Shown here one piece after another: positions 990 to 32,600 of a stretch of DNA of 64,000 nucleotides. Below the pieces are notes generated by a model. That model saw nothing but the letters and a program-made list of their open reading frames with translations, was not told where the DNA came from and searched no databases. How positions within the stretch are numbered: the first letter of the stretch is position 1; every line of letters begins with the position of its first letter. The translations under genes were made by a program, and so were the position numbers. The stretch is from the NCBI GenBank assembly GCA_020051695.1, contig JAGVQM010000021.1, positions 186,001 to 250,000 on the forward strand, written 5' to 3'. This stretch comes from Candidatus Zixiibacteriota bacterium. GTDB taxonomy: Bacteria > Zixibacteria > MSB-5A5 > WJJR01 > JAJRUJ01.

Positions 990-1050
990 CGGGCGGCGCA
1001 AAGCATTTTAACCGGGCCGGCCGATGATAATCGTAACCGGGTGTAATGTA

Positions 1051-1079
1051 TTGACAGATTTGGATTTTAGGTTATCTTT
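1051..1079 (+). promoter_or_regulatory. Promoter: TTGACA-16-TATCTTT
   Basis: A perfect -35 hexamer TTGACA (1051-1056) is followed after 16 bases by TATCTTT (1073-1079). Read by the Bacteroidetes scheme it is TTG-N19-TAnnTTT. It lies about 65 bases upstream of the secreted FG-GAP protein start at 1144, which supports that start over the longer reading frame that would run through the promoter. Confidence 0.65.
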
Positions 1080-1143
1080 CGGTTTAAGGAGCCGGTGTAT
1101 ATACCGCATAAACGGAACGATATCGTTGGTTTCCTGCAAGTCA

Positions 1144-2823
1144 ATGAAGATAAGAATTCTGCTCGCCCTCTGGGCGGTTGCGCCGGCAATCTGGCCCGTT
1201 CTGGTTTTCGGCCAAAGCGTTCAGTCTGTTTTTCCGGGGCAAAATGCCCTCGATGTCCCGGCGACGACCTTTTTTTCCGCCACTTTTGATGTGGAAATGA
1301 ACGGCGCCACCATCAACGCAACCACATTCAAGGCATATTCTTCCAGCTCGGCGCCCCTTTCCGGCGCAATTGGTTATGACTACCCGACCCGGACCGCCAC
1401 TTTTGAGCCGAATAATCCTCTGACCGCCGGGGAAGTGGTCACCGTCGTTTTGACCGAAGATATCCACTCCGCCGTCGGTGACCCATTGACCGGCGGTTAC
1501 CTGTGGTCGTTTACCGTCGCGGCAAGCGTCGGTCCCGGGTTTATCTCACCCTATCGGACACTGGCCGGCGCGCCCTACCCCCGGGCAATCTGCCCGGCCG
1601 ATATCAACGGTGACGGCCATTTGGATATTGTGACCGCCAACAACGGCACTGATTCGATCTCGGTTTTTCCCGGCAACGGTGACGGCACGTTCGGTCCGCG
1701 CGTGGATTATATCGTCCATGAGGCGCCGTGGTCGGTGGCCGCCGGGGACCTGGATGGCGACGGCGATGTCGATGTCGCCACCGCCAATTATCTTTCATCC
1801 GACGTGACTGTCCTGTCTAACGACGGCACAGGATTACTTACTGTTCAAACAACCTACCCGGTCGGTGAGCGGCCGGAACAGGTTTGTCTGGCCGACTTCA
1901 ACAATGACGGCGCGCCGGATCTGGCGACCGCCGATAGTTATGCCGATGCCGTCTCGATTTTGATGAACAACGGCGATGGTACATTTGCCATACAGGCACT
2001 CAGCGGGGTTGGGAATACTCCCTATCTGGTGCTTCCTTTTGATCTCGATAACGACGGCGACCTGGATTTGGCAGTGACCAACGGTGCGGGGCAGGTCGTG
2101 CTGTTTCATGGGCTGGGCAACGGGATATTCATCCAATGGACCAGCTATCCGGTGGGGTCGTTGCCGTATAGTGGTGTGGCTGCCGATTTGAACGGTGATG
2201 GCCACCTCGATTTGGCGGTGGCCAATATTTTCGACCATACCATATCGGTGATGCTTAACCAGGGGAACGGCACACTGGCCCCGGACGTGTTGTATCCCAG
2301 CGCATACAATCCCTCCTCAATTATTGCCGCCGACTTTGACGGGGACGGCGACCTCGATCTGGCCGCGGCCAACAGTAATTCCGCCGCTGTCTCCATACTC
2401 AGCAACAACGGGGACGGCACCTTTGCCGCCGGGGTATCGTTTCCGGTCTGGTATCAACCGTGGGCGAGCGCCGCCGCGGATATCGATCATGACGGCGATC
2501 TCGACCTGCTCATCGCGCATTATAGTCCGTCGGGAGTGATTTCAATTTTATACAACGGCTGCAATTGTCTGGGGTACGGTGACGTTAATGCGAGCGGCGG
2601 AATCAACCCGGTGGATGTTTCCTTTATGGTCAATCATGTTTACCTGCAGCGTGACGCGCGCGTCCAGCTTGCGGGCTGCCCCGGTGACAACGGCGATTGG
2701 AACTGCGACGGGCTGTTGACTCCGCTGGATGTCGCGTTTTATATCAATTATGTCTTCAAGGGTTGGGGCACAGGACCGTGTAATCCCTGCGAGTGTGCGC
2801 CATACCCGGGTGGTTGCCCGTAA
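1144..2823 (+). CDS. Secreted Ig-like / FG-GAP (VCBS) repeat protein with C-terminal dockerin-like module
   Basis: A 559-residue exported protein. The ATG at 1144 gives a clean signal peptide (MKIRILLALWAVAPAIWP, cleavage near VFGQS). Residues about 27-130 resemble a bacterial Ig-like (SbsA/Big_5 type) domain. About 140-475 are FG-GAP/VCBS repeats, seven or so copies of D-x-N/D-x-D-G-x-x-D-L with the recurring AADLDGDGDLDLA pattern, expected to form a calcium-binding beta-propeller. The last 85 residues hold a pair of dockerin-like repeats (GDVNASGGINPVDVSF, then a second copy with LTPLDVAFYINYVF) with flanking cysteines. The role is probably adhesive or surface binding; no catalytic domain is visible. 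There is no strong Shine-Dalgarno at 1144. The dockerin-like tail is shared with the genes at 3086 and 19848. Confidence 0.85.
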   Translation: MKIRILLALWAVAPAIWPVLVFGQSVQSVFPGQNALDVPATTFFSATFDVEMNGATINATTFKAYSSSSAPLSGAIGYDYPTRTATFEPNNPLTAGEVVTVVLTEDIHSAVGDPLTGGYLWSFTVAASVGPGFISPYRTLAGAPYPRAICPADINGDGHLDIVTANNGTDSISVFPGNGDGTFGPRVDYIVHEAPWSVAAGDLDGDGDVDVATANYLSSDVTVLSNDGTGLLTVQTTYPVGERPEQVCLADFNNDGAPDLATADSYADAVSILMNNGDGTFAIQALSGVGNTPYLVLPFDLDNDGDLDLAVTNGAGQVVLFHGLGNGIFIQWTSYPVGSLPYSGVAADLNGDGHLDLAVANIFDHTISVMLNQGNGTLAPDVLYPSAYNPSSIIAADFDGDGDLDLAAANSNSAAVSILSNNGDGTFAAGVSFPVWYQPWASAAADIDHDGDLDLLIAHYSPSGVISILYNGCNCLGYGDVNASGGINPVDVSFMVNHVYLQRDARVQLAGCPGDNGDWNCDGLLTPLDVAFYINYVFKGWGTGPCNPCECAPYPGGCP

Positions 2824-19847: not shown

Positions 19848-21767
19848 TCACCCGCACGGGTTACACAGATCATCACGATTGCGGAACACGTAATTAATCA
19901 GATAGACCACATCAATGGGGGCAAGATGCCCGTCGCAATTCACGTCGCCGTTTTCGTAAGGGCAGGCCGTGTACTGACAGCGATCGTCGCGGGAGCGATA
20001 GATATAATTAATCAGCAGGATGGCGTCGATCGGCTGGACGCTCTGGTCGCAATTCATGTCGCCCCTGATCCCGCAATCGCATAGTTCGCAGACATCACCA
20101 ATGCCGTCGCCGTCAGTGTCCTCCTGGCCGAAATTGGCGACCAGCGGGCAATTATCACAAACATCGCCGACACCGTCTTCGTCAGTGTCTTCCTGATACG
20201 GGTTAAACACTGCGGGGCAATTGTCGTCAGGGCAGCCATTGTTGGGGTAGTCCGGGTCGCCGTAATCATCCCCGTCGCTGTCCTGACAATCGAAAAAGAT
20301 CTCGAAATATGCCATCAGCTCGTCATACAGGTCATTGTCAATTGGGAAATTCAAGGGAATGAAGTCCGGGCGGACATCGAAGCGGAATGTCGAACTCAAT
20401 GCCGCGAGGAAAAATGTCACGCGGTTGGTGGTGTTAAAGCCGCCATACGACGCAAAAATCGTGGAGTAGGTCTGCACGTGCCAATAGCTGAAGTGGGCCA
20501 GGAAACGCCGCAATTTGTTCCAGTCCTGGACGTCGGAATATTCGTAAATTTTCTGGACTAAGGCGTGGCTGGTCGCGGTGAGATCGTATTGGAACACACA
20601 GCCGCCGTCGATGTAGTTCTGGTATTCCCATGCATGATACGCCCGGCCGGCAGCACGGGAGTCCTCGATGATCTGAATGGTCGCCGGATCGAAATCAGCG
20701 GCATACCGATGCAATAATTCATTGTGGTCGTACTGGACGAACCATTCGGCAATCGTTTCCTGATAGAACGCACCGGGGATACCGATGCAATTGAAAAACA
20801 TATTGGCGCCCGAAAGATTATGGCCCATTTCGTGAAAGGGGACGGCGATATTGGGCACACCCGCTACCGGCAGGGTAAAATCACCGATTCCCAGCGGATT
20901 GCCGCTGCCGCCATATAAGGGCGGCGCATAGGAGATACCTTGAAAGACAGGGCGGTCGTCCTGGTTGATATTAATCCCGCCGGTACTCCACAAACCCAAT
21001 TCGACTGCCCGGTCGAAAATCAGACGATATTGGTCTTCCGCGATGGTCAGATCATAAAACTCCACCGGCAAATACAAACCGATATACTCACCCCAGAGGT
21101 CATGAAAATCACCGGGATTGCTGTTGATCAGCACATTCAACGACTGGACCGCCTCAACCTGGTCGACATACACATAGATAAAAGCCCAGCCGAAATCCGC
21201 CGCACTGAAATATCCCGCGTCCGGCGTGATGATCAGGACCGAATCCTCGATCTGAACAGAAACCAGCGCGGCAATTGAACTCGGCACGAATACGTCGACC
21301 AGCCGGCCGGCAAGTGACAGATACTGGTCGGCGGCATCATAGGCGGTAATGAAGATCGAGTCGACATCACCGGCTTTCATCGCCTGACAGTAAGTCGTCA
21401 ACTCCACGCGGGCGACATCGGTCTCCAGCGGTTCGGGGACATTGACATTGACAAACGACGATGCCGCATTTCCCAGATCATCATACGCGATCAGCCAGAC
21501 CATAAACGGACCGGGGGAGGTATAGCGGTGTAACGAGGGAAAGTACCCGGTGGATACTGTGCCGTCGCCCCAATCGTATGTCCACGCCAGCGTATAGCAC
21601 CCAGTGCAGCCGACCCCGCCGTTTATTTCAACCAGACGGCCGTCCGGACTTTGCGCACTGACGAACCCGCCAATACCAAGTTGCCCATTTGCCTGCAGCG
21701 GAAACAGGGCAAACGCCAACACGCTCACCGCCAGCAGATAAACTGTTGAGCGTCCTGGTTTATTCAT
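19848..21767 (-). CDS. Secreted gluzincin-type metalloprotease with PKD, TSP3 and dockerin-like domains
   Basis: A 639-residue exported protein. The ATG at 21767 has AGGGAG upstream and opens a signal peptide ([20 protein letters not shown]). Residues about 35-115 resemble a PKD domain ([20 protein letters not shown]). The protease core has HEMGH (His312-Glu313-His316), and a Glu 21 residues later (YQETIAEWF) could be the third zinc ligand. HEXXHX20E is compatible with the M60-like/enhancin group. Two thrombospondin type-3 calcium repeats ([27 protein letters not shown]) and a paired dockerin-like module ([34 protein letters not shown]) close the protein. The likely role is cleavage of extracellular protein or glycoprotein. 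The M60 assignment is tentative. Confidence 0.82.
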
Positions 21768-21928
21768 TTGTTGCTCCCTAAAGAGGTATTTCAATCCTTC
21801 AGGTTTGCTCCCGCGACAGACTACGTTTCGGGGATGCTATTATTACATATTTTTATCAGGTTGCGTGACTTAAGGCCAATAACCTGACAAAACAAAAACA
21901 TCTACACCCTGCTCTTTATTCTATCAAT

Positions 21929-25809: not shown

Positions 25810-26030
25810 GGCATCCTCCTCCACGCTGTCCGGCGGTCCCTTATTCAAGAAACATACATGACACAGCCGTGCTTTACAAGTGTTCACTTCCGGCCCCGCG
25901 CCGGAGATTCTCCCGCAAAGGAGCCGGAAAGGGCATGCGTATAAACTCCATGATTAATGCAGACAAATCCCGCAAAAGGACGTATCATTATCTTTCGGGG
26001 AACACGGCAACAGACGGGTAGGGTCCTGAT

Positions 26031-28397
26031 TTGGTCTATGCGGTTCTCATCCTGATTGCGCTGGGCACCCGCAGCATTGGTGATTTTCGGCCGTCGCAGT
26101 ACGCCCTGGCCGAGGCCGTTGTTTTGGGCTGGTTGTGGCTGCGGCAGGAAGTCTGGTTTGCGCAGCGGCCGGCGCGGTTATTGTTGTGGGTGACTCTCAT
26201 CCCCGTGCTCGGGATCTACCTCCATGCCGAATTTCTGATTAAGGCGGCCATCCTCTTTGGCGCGGTACTATTGTGGCGGCGGGGAGAAGACACGCGGCGC
26301 CGGGCGGCTGCCGAGTGGACCCTGCGCGGGCTGGCGGCGTATGCGATTATCTATACGGTGTTTCTGCTCTGGCCGGTGACCTTCAATTTCGTGCGGATAT
26401 TTTCCTATTGGCATTCCGGTCTTTTTTCCGCCCTGGCGCCCGCGGGTTTGTCGCTGGGCCCGACTGCAACCGGATATCCGGTCATCCTGGCGGGGATCGT
26501 CTTTATTGTCGCCTTACAGTGGTTCAGTTCAAAGGCGAGCTGGGTCAATACGCTGGCCGGGGTCATCTTACTCTTCATCGGGCAGGTGCTGTTCTGGGCC
26601 ATCGCCTATTCACTGGGGTTGAAAGTCGCCTCCTGGATACCACTGACCAAGGCCGTGTACATCCATCTGTCGATATTTTATCTGCTGTGGACCCTGGCGG
26701 CCGTGCGCGTCATCTCCTGGATCCATCCACCGGATATCGCTGGTATTGCGGCTGTCGAACGGATTAAGAAACCGGCATTGGTAGTGCTGGGTGTGCTGGC
26801 GGTCTGTGCCGTTCTTTTTGCCGGGCCGTTTACTCCGGCCTCCGGCGGGAAAGGCAAGCGTGTGCTGCTGCTCAACGCCGACAAACTTGACGTCCGTATC
26901 CCCAATTTCAGCAAGTACGGCGACCGCAGCGCGGGGATGTTCGGGATGCTGCCCCGGTTCTGCCGCGGGCTGGGGTATGATGTTCGACTGGCCAATGTGA
27001 CACCGGAAATTTTCGATTCGATCGATGTGTGCATTTTTGCAAACCTCATTGATTCACTGCCCGACTGGCAGCGCGATTCGGTATTTTCGTTTGTCCGCCG
27101 GGGTGGGGGGCTGCTGGCGCTGGCCGACCATACCGGGTATAACGCCATCCGCGGTCCGACCAATGAACTGACCGGACCGATGGGTTTGATGGTCAATTTC
27201 GATACCGCGATTCCGCTGCGGCGGTCGTGGTATGGTCAGATGCGTTATCTCCCGCACCGGATTACGCAGTCGGCGCGGACGCATGACGAAATGGAGGTCT
27301 GGCTGGGTGGGTCGGTCGAGCCGCTACCGGGCAGTCTGCCGCTGGTGGTGGGTGTCCACACGTACTCCGATCCGGGTGATTCGGCCAACTCCGAGCGGTC
27401 CTATCTGGGCAATCTGGAGTATGATCCCGGTGAACCGCTCGGCGACATTATCATTGCCGCAGCCGCGCATTACGGCCGAGGCCGGGCGGTCATCTTCGGG
27501 GATACCTCCCCGTTCCAGAACGGTGCACTGGTGATGAGTCATCGCCTGGCCGCCCGGACGTTGGGCTGGCTGAGCAGCGGCGGGACGCCGTTGTGGGATG
27601 GGTTGCGGACATGGGGTTTCCCGTTAGTCTTGATCCTCGCGTTGGGCGCGGGGTTTGTGCTGCTCCGGCGGCGGTTGTCGGCGATGGCTTATCTCGTGCT
27701 GCTGCCGGTGTGTTCGATTTCGCTGTGGAACCTGTATCCGGCCGGTGAACCTGAAACCTGGTTCAATGAGGAAATGCCGCCGGCTTTCATCGATGCCTCA
27801 CACGGGCAGTTTTTTGATCTGATGGGGTGGGAAAAATATTCGGTGGGCGGATTGGAATTGAATCTGATGCGCAATGGGTATCAGCCGCAAGTCCGGAAGA
27901 CCTGGCATCCGGGGATGCTTAAAAAGGCGCGGTTGCTGATCATCGCCCGCCCCACGCAGCCGATCACCGCTGCCGAAATTGATGAGTTATTGCCCTTCAT
28001 CGAAAGCGGCGGCTGGGTCCTGGTGGCCGCCGGTTATGAAGAACACGCGGCGGTGGATGAGTTATTGGCCGCATTTGGGCTGAAGATCGAAAACGTGCCT
28101 CTGGGGCGCGCGGAAGGTCTCGGTCTGGAGGAAAAACCCACGTTTGCCCGCGTCTACCAGCTCAGCGGCACCGACCCGGGGATGCAGGTGGTCTGTACGG
28201 CCTCGCAGCTTCCGGTGGTTGCTTCAGTCAGATGCGGGCAGGGGGGGCTGGCCCTGATTGGGGACCCGGTGTTCCTGTTCAATGATAATCTGGAAAACCG
28301 GGACGAGGATTATCACGTGGAAAACATCCGCTTTTTCCATGCCCTGATGAAGACAACCTCCGGGGCTTGGGGCCAGGTGGGAGAGCCCAATCCATGA
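26031..28397 (+). CDS. Membrane protein with two GATase-like exoplasmic domains (paralogue A)
   Basis: A 788-residue protein, first of two tandem paralogues. Residues about 1-275 form roughly eight transmembrane helices. About 285-515 are an alpha/beta domain starting KRVLLLNADKLDV, with GGGLLALADHTG near residue 358 and GRAVIFGDTSPFQNG, the pattern of class-I-glutamine-amidotransferase-like (DUF4350-type) domains. A second short TM block (about 520-565) is followed by another such domain (about 575-775), with KKARLLIIARPTQPI, ESGGWVLVAAGYEE and GQGGLALIGDPVF. No Cys-His-Glu catalytic triad is obvious, so ligand binding is likelier than amidotransfer. The start TTG 26031 lies after AGGG. It overlaps paralogue B by ATGA. 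Function unknown. Confidence 0.8.
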   Translation: MVYAVLILIALGTRSIGDFRPSQYALAEAVVLGWLWLRQEVWFAQRPARLLLWVTLIPVLGIYLHAEFLIKAAILFGAVLLWRRGEDTRRRAAAEWTLRGLAAYAIIYTVFLLWPVTFNFVRIFSYWHSGLFSALAPAGLSLGPTATGYPVILAGIVFIVALQWFSSKASWVNTLAGVILLFIGQVLFWAIAYSLGLKVASWIPLTKAVYIHLSIFYLLWTLAAVRVISWIHPPDIAGIAAVERIKKPALVVLGVLAVCAVLFAGPFTPASGGKGKRVLLLNADKLDVRIPNFSKYGDRSAGMFGMLPRFCRGLGYDVRLANVTPEIFDSIDVCIFANLIDSLPDWQRDSVFSFVRRGGGLLALADHTGYNAIRGPTNELTGPMGLMVNFDTAIPLRRSWYGQMRYLPHRITQSARTHDEMEVWLGGSVEPLPGSLPLVVGVHTYSDPGDSANSERSYLGNLEYDPGEPLGDIIIAAAAHYGRGRAVIFGDTSPFQNGALVMSHRLAARTLGWLSSGGTPLWDGLRTWGFPLVLILALGAGFVLLRRRLSAMAYLVLLPVCSISLWNLYPAGEPETWFNEEMPPAFIDASHGQFFDLMGWEKYSVGGLELNLMRNGYQPQVRKTWHPGMLKKARLLIIARPTQPITAAEIDELLPFIESGGWVLVAAGYEEHAAVDELLAAFGLKIENVPLGRAEGLGLEEKPTFARVYQLSGTDPGMQVVCTASQLPVVASVRCGQGGLALIGDPVFLFNDNLENRDEDYHVENIRFFHALMKTTSGAWGQVGEPNP

Positions 28398-30943
28398 TGC
28401 TGCCGTTGAGTATCAGTCTGCTGGCCGTCTGCTGGCTTTTTTTGCCGCCGTCGCGGTTTCCCGATCTGCCGGTTTTCTATTATTGTGTTGCGGGCGCGTT
28501 TCTGGCAGCTGTCGCGGGGAAGCAGCGGGCCTCGGCAATCATCCCGCGCGGCTGGTCGTCCCTGCCGGCCGCGATAGTGCTGCTCATTTTCTATTTTATC
28601 TGGGATAGTCCGACCGGTTTGGGCGCGCTGATTCTGGCAGCAGGGATTCTTCTGGGTTCGCTGCTGGGCGGCGACCGGCTGGTACGGCGGTTCACCGACG
28701 GGCTCACGACTGTCGGCGCCGTGCTGTTGCTGCAATTGGCCGGGTCGTACCTGTATTACTTCGTGGTGGGGCCGCGCGCGCATGACGCTGCGCCATGGTC
28801 TTCGCTGCTGCATGCGATTTTGAATGTCCTGGGGATCAACAGCGGGGTGAGTACGGCGGGCATCCATCTGGTCCTGCCCGATATTCTCTATCAGGTCGCG
28901 CCCACGCTGAACAACATGGGGATCTTTTTTTTCCTGCAGGTCTTTATCGGGTTGATCGTGCTGGTCGCGCTGGGGCGGATACGGGCCGGGGCCTTGTGGC
29001 GCGGGGCATTGATTTTGTTCGTTTATATGCTGCTGCGTTATGCTGCGCTGATGGTTTACGATATCTCACGCAGCAACCAGGGGACATACTGGTGGCCGTC
29101 CACCACCGCCTGGACATCGGTGTGGGTATTTGCGTTCCTGCGCGGGAAAACCTTCGCGCCGAAACCGGGGCGAAGCGACGGGCAGCACCCGTTTCATGAC
29201 CCAAAAGGCAGCTGGCGCCGCGCGGCGGTGCTGGTCGGGTGCACAATCGTCACGATCATCGCCTGGACCATGGTCCAGGCGTATGTCGATCCCGGCAGGC
29301 AGAAGCAGGGACGGTTGTTGATCGACGAACACCATTCCGACTGGGAATGGACGGAGATGAAATTCGATACACTGTGGTACGGCCAGCAATCGACTTACAA
29401 CTTTTATTCCGGCGCGGAGTTCTGGGGCAAATACTATGACCTGGAACGCGGGCATGCCGATTTTACCCTGGAGTACCTGAAACAATATGATGTTGTGTGC
29501 CTGAAAGTCCCGACCCGTCCGTATAAACCGGCGGAAATCGAGGCGGTGCGGCAGTATGTTGCCGATGGTGGCGGGCTGGTGCTGATCGGCGATCATACCA
29601 ATGTTTTCGGCCATGCGACGTTTTTAAATCAAATTTCCGAGATGTTCGGGCTGTATGTCCACGCAGACATTGCCTATGAAGTGGTAACCGGTGATCTGAA
29701 TGTCTACCAGATGCCGAAGACGTTGCCGCATCCGGTCGTACAAAACCTGCCGTTGTTTTTATGGGGCGGCCAGTGCACGCTGCGCGGCGATGCGGGCGTG
29801 AAGGGCGTGATGGTGGATATGAACATCAAGACACTGCCTGCCGACTACTCCGAACGCAATTTTTTCCCCGAACGCGTCCAGCACGCGGATTACCGTTTCG
29901 GGCCGTTCTTTTCGGTGGCCAGTTGCACCTACGGCAAGGGCCGGATTATCTGTTTTACCGACAGCACGCTCATTTCCAATTTTTTCATTTTTATCCCCGG
30001 CAAACCGGAATTGATGCTGGGACTGGTCGAGTATGCCAACCGCGAGGAACGTTTTCCCGGCTGGCGCATGTTTTTGACCATCGTCGGCGGGTTTTCCCTG
30101 TTGATCGGGTTAATCGTAGCCGGCTCATTCGGCGCCCGAGGGTTCATCTGGATGCTGGCGGCAGGTCTTACGACGTTTATTGTGATCGCCCCGCGCATTG
30201 AACAGGCCAATCGCGATAACTACCCGCTGCCGGAGCCGAAAACACCGTATAAGCAATTAATCTTCGAGGGTGAATACTCACAGTATTTTATCCCCGAACT
30301 GCGGCTGGCCAACAACCAGGATAAGGATTTTCATACGTTTTTTGTCTGGACGCAGCGGGTCGATGTCTATCCGCGGAAATATTATTCGTTCGACAAATGT
30401 GTAGCCGAGGCCCGCAAGCTGGGCGCGCTGTTGATGATCGACCCGGGAAAGGTCCCGACCCCGGAGCAAATGGAGCGGCTCAAATCGTATATCCACGAAG
30501 GGGGCACGTTGGTGGTGGTCGATGATCCGGAAAACGGTAGGGTCCCGACCAATACACTGCTGAAGGACTTCGGGCTGGAAATGGATTTCATCAACCAGAT
30601 TGCCCCTTCCAATCTCAGCCAGTATCCGGCGGCTTCGATCTGGAACAATGCCGCGCCGATCAGGGGCGGCACGCCATTGTACATCTCACCCGACGGCGCG
30701 CCGGTGGTGGCCGAAGCCAGGTACGGCAAGGGCCGGGTGATCGCGTACGGCAATTCCCGATCATTCGAACGGAAGATATTTGGCTATACCTCGATGATCC
30801 CCAATGCACAGCAGCGCGCGATCAACCACTTCGCCTATCAGTTGATGGACTGGATTTTCGAACCGGCCGGGGCTGGTCCCGCGCTTGACGGCGGACCGGC
30901 ACGCGAAGTACAGCCGGCCGGGGAAACGCCGGTTGCCAGATAA
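28394..30943 (+). CDS. Membrane protein with two GATase-like exoplasmic domains and exosortase-like TM core (paralogue B)
   Basis: An 849-residue protein with the same plan as its upstream neighbour: about nine TM helices (1-305), GATase-like domain 1 (about 316-560, with GGGLVLIGDHTNVFG at about 392 and GKGRIICFTDSTL), a TM pair (about 560-605), and GATase-like domain 2 (about 640-825, with HEGGTLVVVDDPENG and YGKGRVIAYGNSRSF). In the TM part LGINSGVSTAGIHLVLP and YMLLRYAALMVY resemble the exosortase/archaeosortase region. The expected catalytic Cys position reads APTLNNMG, so no transpeptidase activity is expected. ATG 28394 overlaps the previous stop. Role unknown; sensing or assembly at the cell surface is speculation. 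Confidence 0.8.
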   Translation: MMLPLSISLLAVCWLFLPPSRFPDLPVFYYCVAGAFLAAVAGKQRASAIIPRGWSSLPAAIVLLIFYFIWDSPTGLGALILAAGILLGSLLGGDRLVRRFTDGLTTVGAVLLLQLAGSYLYYFVVGPRAHDAAPWSSLLHAILNVLGINSGVSTAGIHLVLPDILYQVAPTLNNMGIFFFLQVFIGLIVLVALGRIRAGALWRGALILFVYMLLRYAALMVYDISRSNQGTYWWPSTTAWTSVWVFAFLRGKTFAPKPGRSDGQHPFHDPKGSWRRAAVLVGCTIVTIIAWTMVQAYVDPGRQKQGRLLIDEHHSDWEWTEMKFDTLWYGQQSTYNFYSGAEFWGKYYDLERGHADFTLEYLKQYDVVCLKVPTRPYKPAEIEAVRQYVADGGGLVLIGDHTNVFGHATFLNQISEMFGLYVHADIAYEVVTGDLNVYQMPKTLPHPVVQNLPLFLWGGQCTLRGDAGVKGVMVDMNIKTLPADYSERNFFPERVQHADYRFGPFFSVASCTYGKGRIICFTDSTLISNFFIFIPGKPELMLGLVEYANREERFPGWRMFLTIVGGFSLLIGLIVAGSFGARGFIWMLAAGLTTFIVIAPRIEQANRDNYPLPEPKTPYKQLIFEGEYSQYFIPELRLANNQDKDFHTFFVWTQRVDVYPRKYYSFDKCVAEARKLGALLMIDPGKVPTPEQMERLKSYIHEGGTLVVVDDPENGRVPTNTLLKDFGLEMDFINQIAPSNLSQYPAASIWNNAAPIRGGTPLYISPDGAPVVAEARYGKGRVIAYGNSRSFERKIFGYTSMIPNAQQRAINHFAYQLMDWIFEPAGAGPALDGGPAREVQPAGETPVAR

Positions 30944-31832: not shown

Positions 31833-32600
31833 TTATCCGCCAAGTAGTCCCAGCACCCCCTGTGCCGATTGGTTGGCGTGCATTAATACCGCCGTACCCG
31901 ATTGCAGCAGGAGTTGGTTGCGCACAAACAATGAAACTTCCTGCGCGAAGTCGGTGTCTCGGATGGTCGATTCCGCCGCGGTCAGGTTTTGCAGCGAAAC
32001 CGATAATGAATTACGGGTTGATTCCAGATCGTGCGTGACTTTGGAGCCGATATTGGCCTGTTCGGTCCCCAATTTACTGATCTCGTCATCGATTTTTTCA
32101 ATCGCGGCCTGGGCCGCATCGGCCGATGACAAGTCGATGTCGGTCAGTTGACCGATATCGGCGACCGACCCCTCACTGCCGTCCAGCAATTTTTGCGAGC
32201 CGAACTGCGCAGAATCGATCTTGCGGTTGTACGAATTGGTGAGGTTCATCGCCGCGGTGTCATAGGCCGCGGAGGTGACCTCATCATTATTATATCCTTC
32301 GTTTGCCGCCGCGACGGCCAGTGAACGGAGCTGGATGAGATCATCCTGTAACTGGCCGATCCCGTGGCTGGCCGTCTGATACATGTTGATCGATAAATCG
32401 GTGTTCTTGATTTCCTGTTCCAGCGAGCCGATTTGCGCACGCATTTGTTCGGAAATAACCAGGCCGGCGGGGTCGTCTGCCGCGGAGTTTATTCTCAAGC
32501 CGGAGGACAGTCGACTCATGTTTTTCATGAGGTTGGACTGGGTTAGACCGATATTCCTGGCGGCGTCCATCGCCCCCAAATTCGTTCCCACCGAAAGCAC
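31833..32600 (-). CDS. fliC: Flagellin (short form)
   Basis: A 255-residue flagellin made essentially of the conserved D0/D1 N-terminal domain (LTQSNLMKNMSRLSSGLRIN, SAADDPAGLVISEQMRAQI) and the C-terminal domain (NIGSKVTHDLESTRNSLSV, ESTIRDTDFAQE, ending QSAQGVLGLLGG). There is almost no variable D2/D3 insert. It is secreted by the flagellar type III system and polymerises into the filament. The start is GTG 32600, six bases after AAGGAGG. A sigma-54-type promoter lies just upstream. No other flagellar gene is in the window, so the structural operons must lie elsewhere. Confidence 0.92.
   Translation of the reverse strand: MLSVGTNLGAMDAARNIGLTQSNLMKNMSRLSSGLRINSAADDPAGLVISEQMRAQIGSLEQEIKNTDLSINMYQTASHGIGQLQDDLIQLRSLAVAAANEGYNNDEVTSAAYDTAAMNLTNSYNRKIDSAQFGSQKLLDGSEGSVADIGQLTDIDLSSADAAQAAIEKIDDEISKLGTEQANIGSKVTHDLESTRNSLSVSLQNLTAAESTIRDTDFAQEVSLFVRNQLLLQSGTAVLMHANQSAQGVLGLLGG

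Follow-up and report, generated by a model that had tools for sequence, protein, structure and literature searches.

What is the purpose of two adjacent membrane proteins whose soluble domains resemble glutamine amidotransferases (GATases), but whose architecture matches no named system? The question is raised by a gene pair in the window, a stretch of 64,000 nucleotides from a Candidatus Zixiibacteriota contig. The first gene, P1 (26031..28397, + strand, 788 aa), starts with a TTG codon directly after an in-frame TAG at 26019-26021, and the second, P2 (28394..30943, + strand, 849 aa), starts with an ATG at 28394 that shares four bases with the end of P1. Alignment-averaged hydropathy gives approximately 7-8 transmembrane (TM) segments at the N-terminus of P1 and approximately 8-10 in P2, followed in both proteins by a soluble GIFT/GATase-like domain (G1), two TM segments and a second soluble domain (G2). 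From a 16-sequence alignment across four phyla, G1 covers residues ~275-515 of P1 (26853..27575, +) and ~303-553 of P2 (29300..30052, +). The alignment and the best Pfam DUF4350 stretches (residues 631-758 in P1 and 664-788 in P2) place G2 at residues ~580-775 (27768..28355, +) and ~612-825 (30227..30868, +), respectively. The ATGA overlap and the common domain plan described in the first-pass annotation are borne out by the open reading frames and hydropathy, and the predicted topology supports its view that the GATase-like domains face outward, which would place them in the periplasm.

The soluble domains belong to a described fold family, because both proteins pass the relevant Pfam cut-offs. 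DUF4350 (PF14258) matches P1 with 41.4 bits and P2 with 54.9 bits (gathering cut-off 30.4), in two stretches per protein, and the IFT52 GIFT domain (PF23355) matches marginally with 28.2 and 30.7 bits (cut-off 27.2). As regards membership of a characterised family, named beforehand as one of two results that would refute the first reading, the families are described (DUF4350, GIFT/GldG-like), but no characterised function is attached to them. The claim that no named system has this architecture stands across Pfam, NCBIfam and the open literature searched, where we found no named system for DUF4350 in such an arrangement, and nothing named for Cys at every fifth residue or for Zixibacteria with cysteine-rich proteins. 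Like other DUF4350 and GIFT proteins, P1 and P2 hold a soluble GATase-like domain away from the cytoplasm. In contrast to them, each has two such domains alternating with TM blocks, the two proteins form obligate pairs, and HT and WEW motifs are present; this arrangement has no described function. In archaea, similarity to GldG has led others to connect DUF4350 with a complex predicted to act in secretion or membrane remodelling (PMC5898192), and by analogy this prediction would agree with an assembly role for P1-P2, although the archaeal protein differs in having a large extracellular domain, one in number, and only one TM segment, at its C-terminus.

P1 and P2 had been proposed to arise by duplication. 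For the soluble half this is supported by hhalign with order-level alignments, in which G1 of P1 matches G1 of P2 (E 5e-13) and G2 matches G2 (E 5e-9), with weaker crosswise matches of G1 and G2 between the proteins (4e-7 and 5e-7). However, no relationship is detectable between the N-terminal TM regions. The N-terminus of P2 resembles exosortases by eye (xExxGL, RS, LRYxA, W), but at the level of sequence profiles an exosortase/archaeosortase domain (PF09721) found no support in the N-terminal TM regions, given that Pfam gave no match and two hhalign rounds against 26 exosortases did no better than a reversed control. This region was modelled mostly at pLDDT <50, and the PDB holds no solved exosortase by sequence. 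AlphaFold models, built from the window and L017 only, were poor overall (mean pLDDT 35-40), and Foldseek on the better-modelled part of this low-confidence model returned a GATase-like/GH42-type fold only, the nearest folds including GH42 and ThuA-type GATase-like domains.

Residue conservation was taken from 16-sequence alignments across four phyla, covering 32 proteins (P1 and P2 together). In P1, the invariant residues are H367, T368, D391, W400, S428, D447, E468, D491 and S493 in the G1 pocket and D588, P641, G660, G661, D745 and E755 in G2. In P2, they are H314, WEW317-319, K371, H401, T402, D425, H446, C461, Y485, D523-S-T and S528-N529 in G1, and R655, P660, P684 and G703 in G2. Where class I GATases have their nucleophile, a site assigned here by motif and not by structure, the sequence reads [GA][DE]HT with His-Thr in 32/32 proteins, so the canonical Cys is absent from G1, and a class I glutamine amidotransferase finds no support on this motif-based assignment. 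The earlier statement that the domains lack an evident Cys-His-Glu triad is therefore right as regards the canonical Cys, yet G1 retains an invariant set of its own: H367/H401, T368/T402, D391/D425 and D491/D523 (P1/P2) are identical in 32/32 proteins, and N497/N529 is kept in 30/32. The invariant Cys461 of P2 sits away from the nucleophile elbow. In other GATase-like proteins drawn from the same profile an elbow His is common, and K371 and the full residue set were not seen among them. Judged by sequence, the conservation in G1 of P2 (DxxHxxWEW, K, HT, D, H, Cys461, DST, SN) is enzyme-like.

Within its own order, P2 occurs in 9/9 genomes and P1 in 8/9. In the ninth genome the contig breaks off just inside P2, in two others such a break truncates P1, and every locus of the order that is spared a break has both genes. 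The search of the remaining 123 genomes of the phylum found neither P1 nor P2 at full length, and the viral contigs searched held no relatives. Outside the phylum, a search of 386 genomes revealed full-length pairs in G265, G267, G181 and G323, and searches of small phyla added full-length pairs in G392, G393, G396 and G398 and fragments in G389, G390, G395 and G397, so that the pair is present in its own phylum and three further small phyla. The gene order is constant, with P1 always before P2, and some genomes carry two pairs. In a G1-domain tree of 16 loci, P1 and P2 form separate orthologue clades (UFboot 100) that co-evolve, their distances correlating with r = 0.987. The view that the two genes were kept together as a pair is upheld by this conservation in the order and three other phyla, and its opposite, a pair not conserved together in any relative, is excluded. 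An assembly complex, possibly a heterodimer, as the first-pass annotation suggested, is probably correct.

What, then, does the pair act on? A secreted Cys-periodic repeat protein adjoins it in 15/18 loci with a readable flank, across four phyla (G126, G128, G130, G267, G181, G323, G390, G398, two loci each in G265, G392 and G393, and the second pair of G396, whose repeat gene is cut by a contig end). The three loci that lack an adjoining repeat gene are those of the window genome, of its nearest relative G124 and of the first pair of G396 (L175). The window genome does encode two hexapeptide-repeat proteins, at C14:99768-101336 (-) and C38:39621-42872 (+), both tagged as described below; one has a C-terminal dockerin that passes the Pfam cut-off. 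Neither gene lies within the window, and the pair, at C14:212 kb, is unlinked from these presumed substrates, so the partner is invisible from the window alone.

The repeats place Cys at every fifth to tenth position, up to 230 Cys in 1497 residues in the longest protein; short members have 205 aa (L127) and 156 aa (L174). Hexapeptides TCxGxx (CxGxxT) are found in the own order, G267, G265, G392, G393 and G398; pentapeptides CxGSx beside the second pairs of G265, G392, G393 and G396; heptapeptides CxTDPxW in G181 and G390; and units of about ten residues, CxTNPxxDP, in G323 (1657 aa, 145 Cys). Every class holds a Ser or Thr in constant register to Cys (TC, CxGS, CxT): Thr precedes Cys in 77-100% of units in most hexapeptide proteins, Ser occurs in 91-100% of pentapeptide units, and Thr in 100% of heptapeptide units. 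The repeat proteins of G267, G181 and G124 score 38.8, 30.8 and 37.7 bits with the type IX sorting domain TIGR04183 (cut-off 23), and those with dockerin tails fall below this cut-off. In G390 (L181:9743-10864) a P2 remnant lies beside a shortened heptapeptide-repeat gene; this locus is decaying, given that P2 has a large internal deletion and no P1 was found, and the pair appears to be eroding in parallel with its substrate.

In nearly all Cys-repeat proteins the signal peptide is immediately followed by a tag, [ST]P[LA][FY]xxx[LT], which reads, for instance, SDPQPSPLFQQSLQTSVARL in the own order, SSPLFQHSLELAKANLE in G267, TSPAFGAMLDEAIARLE in G265 and TPLFDYQTRSTVERF in G323. A pattern for this tag was applied to the N-terminal 150 residues of every open frame in the window and 37 loci, 529 kb in total, and matched Cys-repeat ORFs only. 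The tag stays constant while the repeat type varies, and this is the pattern expected of a recognition signal for a common machinery, which P1-P2 may well provide. One pentapeptide-repeat gene of G265 (L128:4982-5687) has an in-frame TAG within the tag region (SPLFSA*LEATL), which could be a sequence error, a pseudogene or recoding.

Co-occurrence across genomes agrees with the linkage. In a search that scored only a few candidates per genome, the matches listed show hexapeptide-repeat ORFs in at least 11 of 386 genomes, all 11 being among the 13 genomes with a pair. The resulting Fisher p of 1e-19 for the matches listed is phylogenetically confounded, as nine of the pair genomes come from one order. 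Outside the own phylum, both genomes with hexapeptide ORFs among the matches listed belong to the four pair genomes in 254 (Fisher p = 2e-4), and in the two others, G181 and G323, the repeat gene next to the pair has a non-hexapeptide period. When a complete repeat protein served as query across the phylum, the matches listed outside the order all fell in the dockerin-like tail and none in the repeats. Weak repeat matches in G225, G258 and G376 were dropped because of internal stops and 23-28% identity.

The first-pass annotation had singled out two small genes behind the pair for a survey of neighbourhoods, and only the first of them is conserved. It lies directly 3' of P2 (31002..31355, +), is conserved in the order, with two copies in two genomes, and encodes a small protein that has one TM segment and clustered cysteines (CPAPNC...CHC). 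Its C-terminal part resembles CcmH (PF03918), which 9/11 relatives match (best E 1.4e-6), the window copy alone not matching. CcmH proteins of cytochrome c maturation handle apocytochrome thiols. However, the present gene adjoins P1-P2 and not a cytochrome c maturation cluster, and it has the Cys spacings CxxxxC and CHC in place of the CxxC redox motif of CcmH. No CcmH-like gene was seen beside pairs in other phyla. The second small gene, encoding a DUF498 protein, is absent next to the pair in other genomes and was ruled out as an operon member. In a second CcmH-like paralogue (L023:13180-13566, L024:3550-3936) the first cluster reads CPATDT in place of CPAPxC, through loss of one Cys. At pentapeptide-type loci, an extra small TM protein of about 106-141 aa with no family match lies between the repeat gene and P1 (L172:11786-12106, L128:5774-6121, L176:4852-5277), and may correspond there to the CcmH-like protein.

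We propose, with a probability of roughly 0.6, that P1-P2 is a periplasm-facing heterodimer of the inner membrane dedicated to the tagged Cys-repeat secreted proteins, whose thiols it would handle during maturation or export. The association of the pair with these proteins is strong, and the chemistry is what we infer. In this model, the heterodimer would hold four GIFT/GATase-like heads in the periplasm. A repeat protein would exit via Sec, and its tag would dock on the G1 heads. The complex would then hold the thiol-rich chain and process or protect it, in the own order presumably together with the CcmH-like thiol protein, so that the thiols retain or acquire their proper state ahead of surface attachment. 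Finally, the matured protein would be released to the cell surface, where its dockerin or type-IX-style tail would attach it. An orphan DUF4350/GIFT arrangement thereby gains a concrete partner and, with it, a testable role. The secreted class identified here combines up to 230 regular Cys, several unrelated repeat types and one common start tag; so many periplasmic thiols pose a real folding problem, for which the literature searched describes no handling system. What is new is the system as a whole, its component parts belonging to known folds.

P1 and P2 could instead be extracytoplasmic enzymes resembling those of RiPP pathways, with the tag as leader and the Cys and Ser/Thr as the modification site (e.g. 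for a thioether, cofactor or sugar). The fixed register of Ser/Thr to Cys and the enzyme-like invariant residues of G1 would fit this, as would a weak match of the pentapeptide repeats to CefA (NF038108), a RiPP peptide that likewise has Cys at each fifth residue. However, the three pentapeptide proteins score only 12.9-16.8 bits with CefA against a cut-off of 30, and the repeat proteins here are Sec-type, in most cases bear the [ST]P[LA][FY] tag and fall largely into classes of period 6, 7 or ~10. In addition, no known modifying-enzyme domain was found, many GIFT-type domains are non-catalytic binding modules, and periods of 5, 6, 7 and ~10 speak against one fixed chemistry; we therefore regard such modification as unlikely. 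It is a bolder and quite doubtful idea that P1-P2 represents an undescribed cross-phylum extracytoplasmic modification system, which would recognise the leader-like tag and install a covalent or metal-thiolate structure on the spaced Cys to give cross-linked or conductive surface fibres. If the repeats were indeed modified or metal-loaded, they would represent a novel type of material on bacterial surfaces.

The ABC_transp_aux and GIFT matches and the type IX sorting tails of several repeat proteins raise the question of whether the pair acts like GldG, as an accessory to an ABC transporter or to a gliding/type IX apparatus that exports repeat proteins. GldG of the gliding-motility ABC transporter is likewise anchored in the membrane and has a periplasmic domain of the GIFT type, but its TM plan differs and the GldG model (TIGR03521, equivalog cut-off 389.85) gives P2 a mere 15 bits and P1 no match. 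Given that the pair neighbourhoods conserve neither an ABC ATPase nor a permease and that other substrates have dockerin ends, this role seems very unlikely. No more credit can be given to a complex that binds carbohydrate, glycosylates the Thr-rich repeats or anchors them to surface glycans: the GH42 and ThuA-type folds and the Thr or Ser conserved in each repeat would be compatible with it, but the fold search relies on a low-confidence model, and glycosyltransferases were noticed beside only one locus. The envelope-sensing role suggested by the first-pass annotation, with the repeat proteins as regulated targets, would suit the membrane and periplasmic domain plan but finds no support and is most improbable, as P1 and P2 have no signalling domain, no conserved regulator lies in the neighbourhoods and physical handling better explains the conserved tag.

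Some further genes deserve mention. Two window genes divergent from P1 (24041-25801 and 25363-25887, -) encode a ferredoxin-type 4Fe-4S protein and an acetyltransferase of the GNAT family, neither conserved beside the pair. In G124, some 7 kb separate an exosortase gene (L244:10899-11774) from a Cys-repeat gene, and the exosortases of the window genome are on contigs other than that of the pair. A short flagellin-like gene of 255 aa (31833-32600, -) also adjoins the pair in G124. Two secreted proteins encoded in the window (1024-2823 and 19848-21794) have dockerin-like tails and a Cys-rich end (CDPCECAPYPGGCP), and the same kind of end (CDPCLCTPYPTNCP) closes several Cys-repeat proteins of the order.
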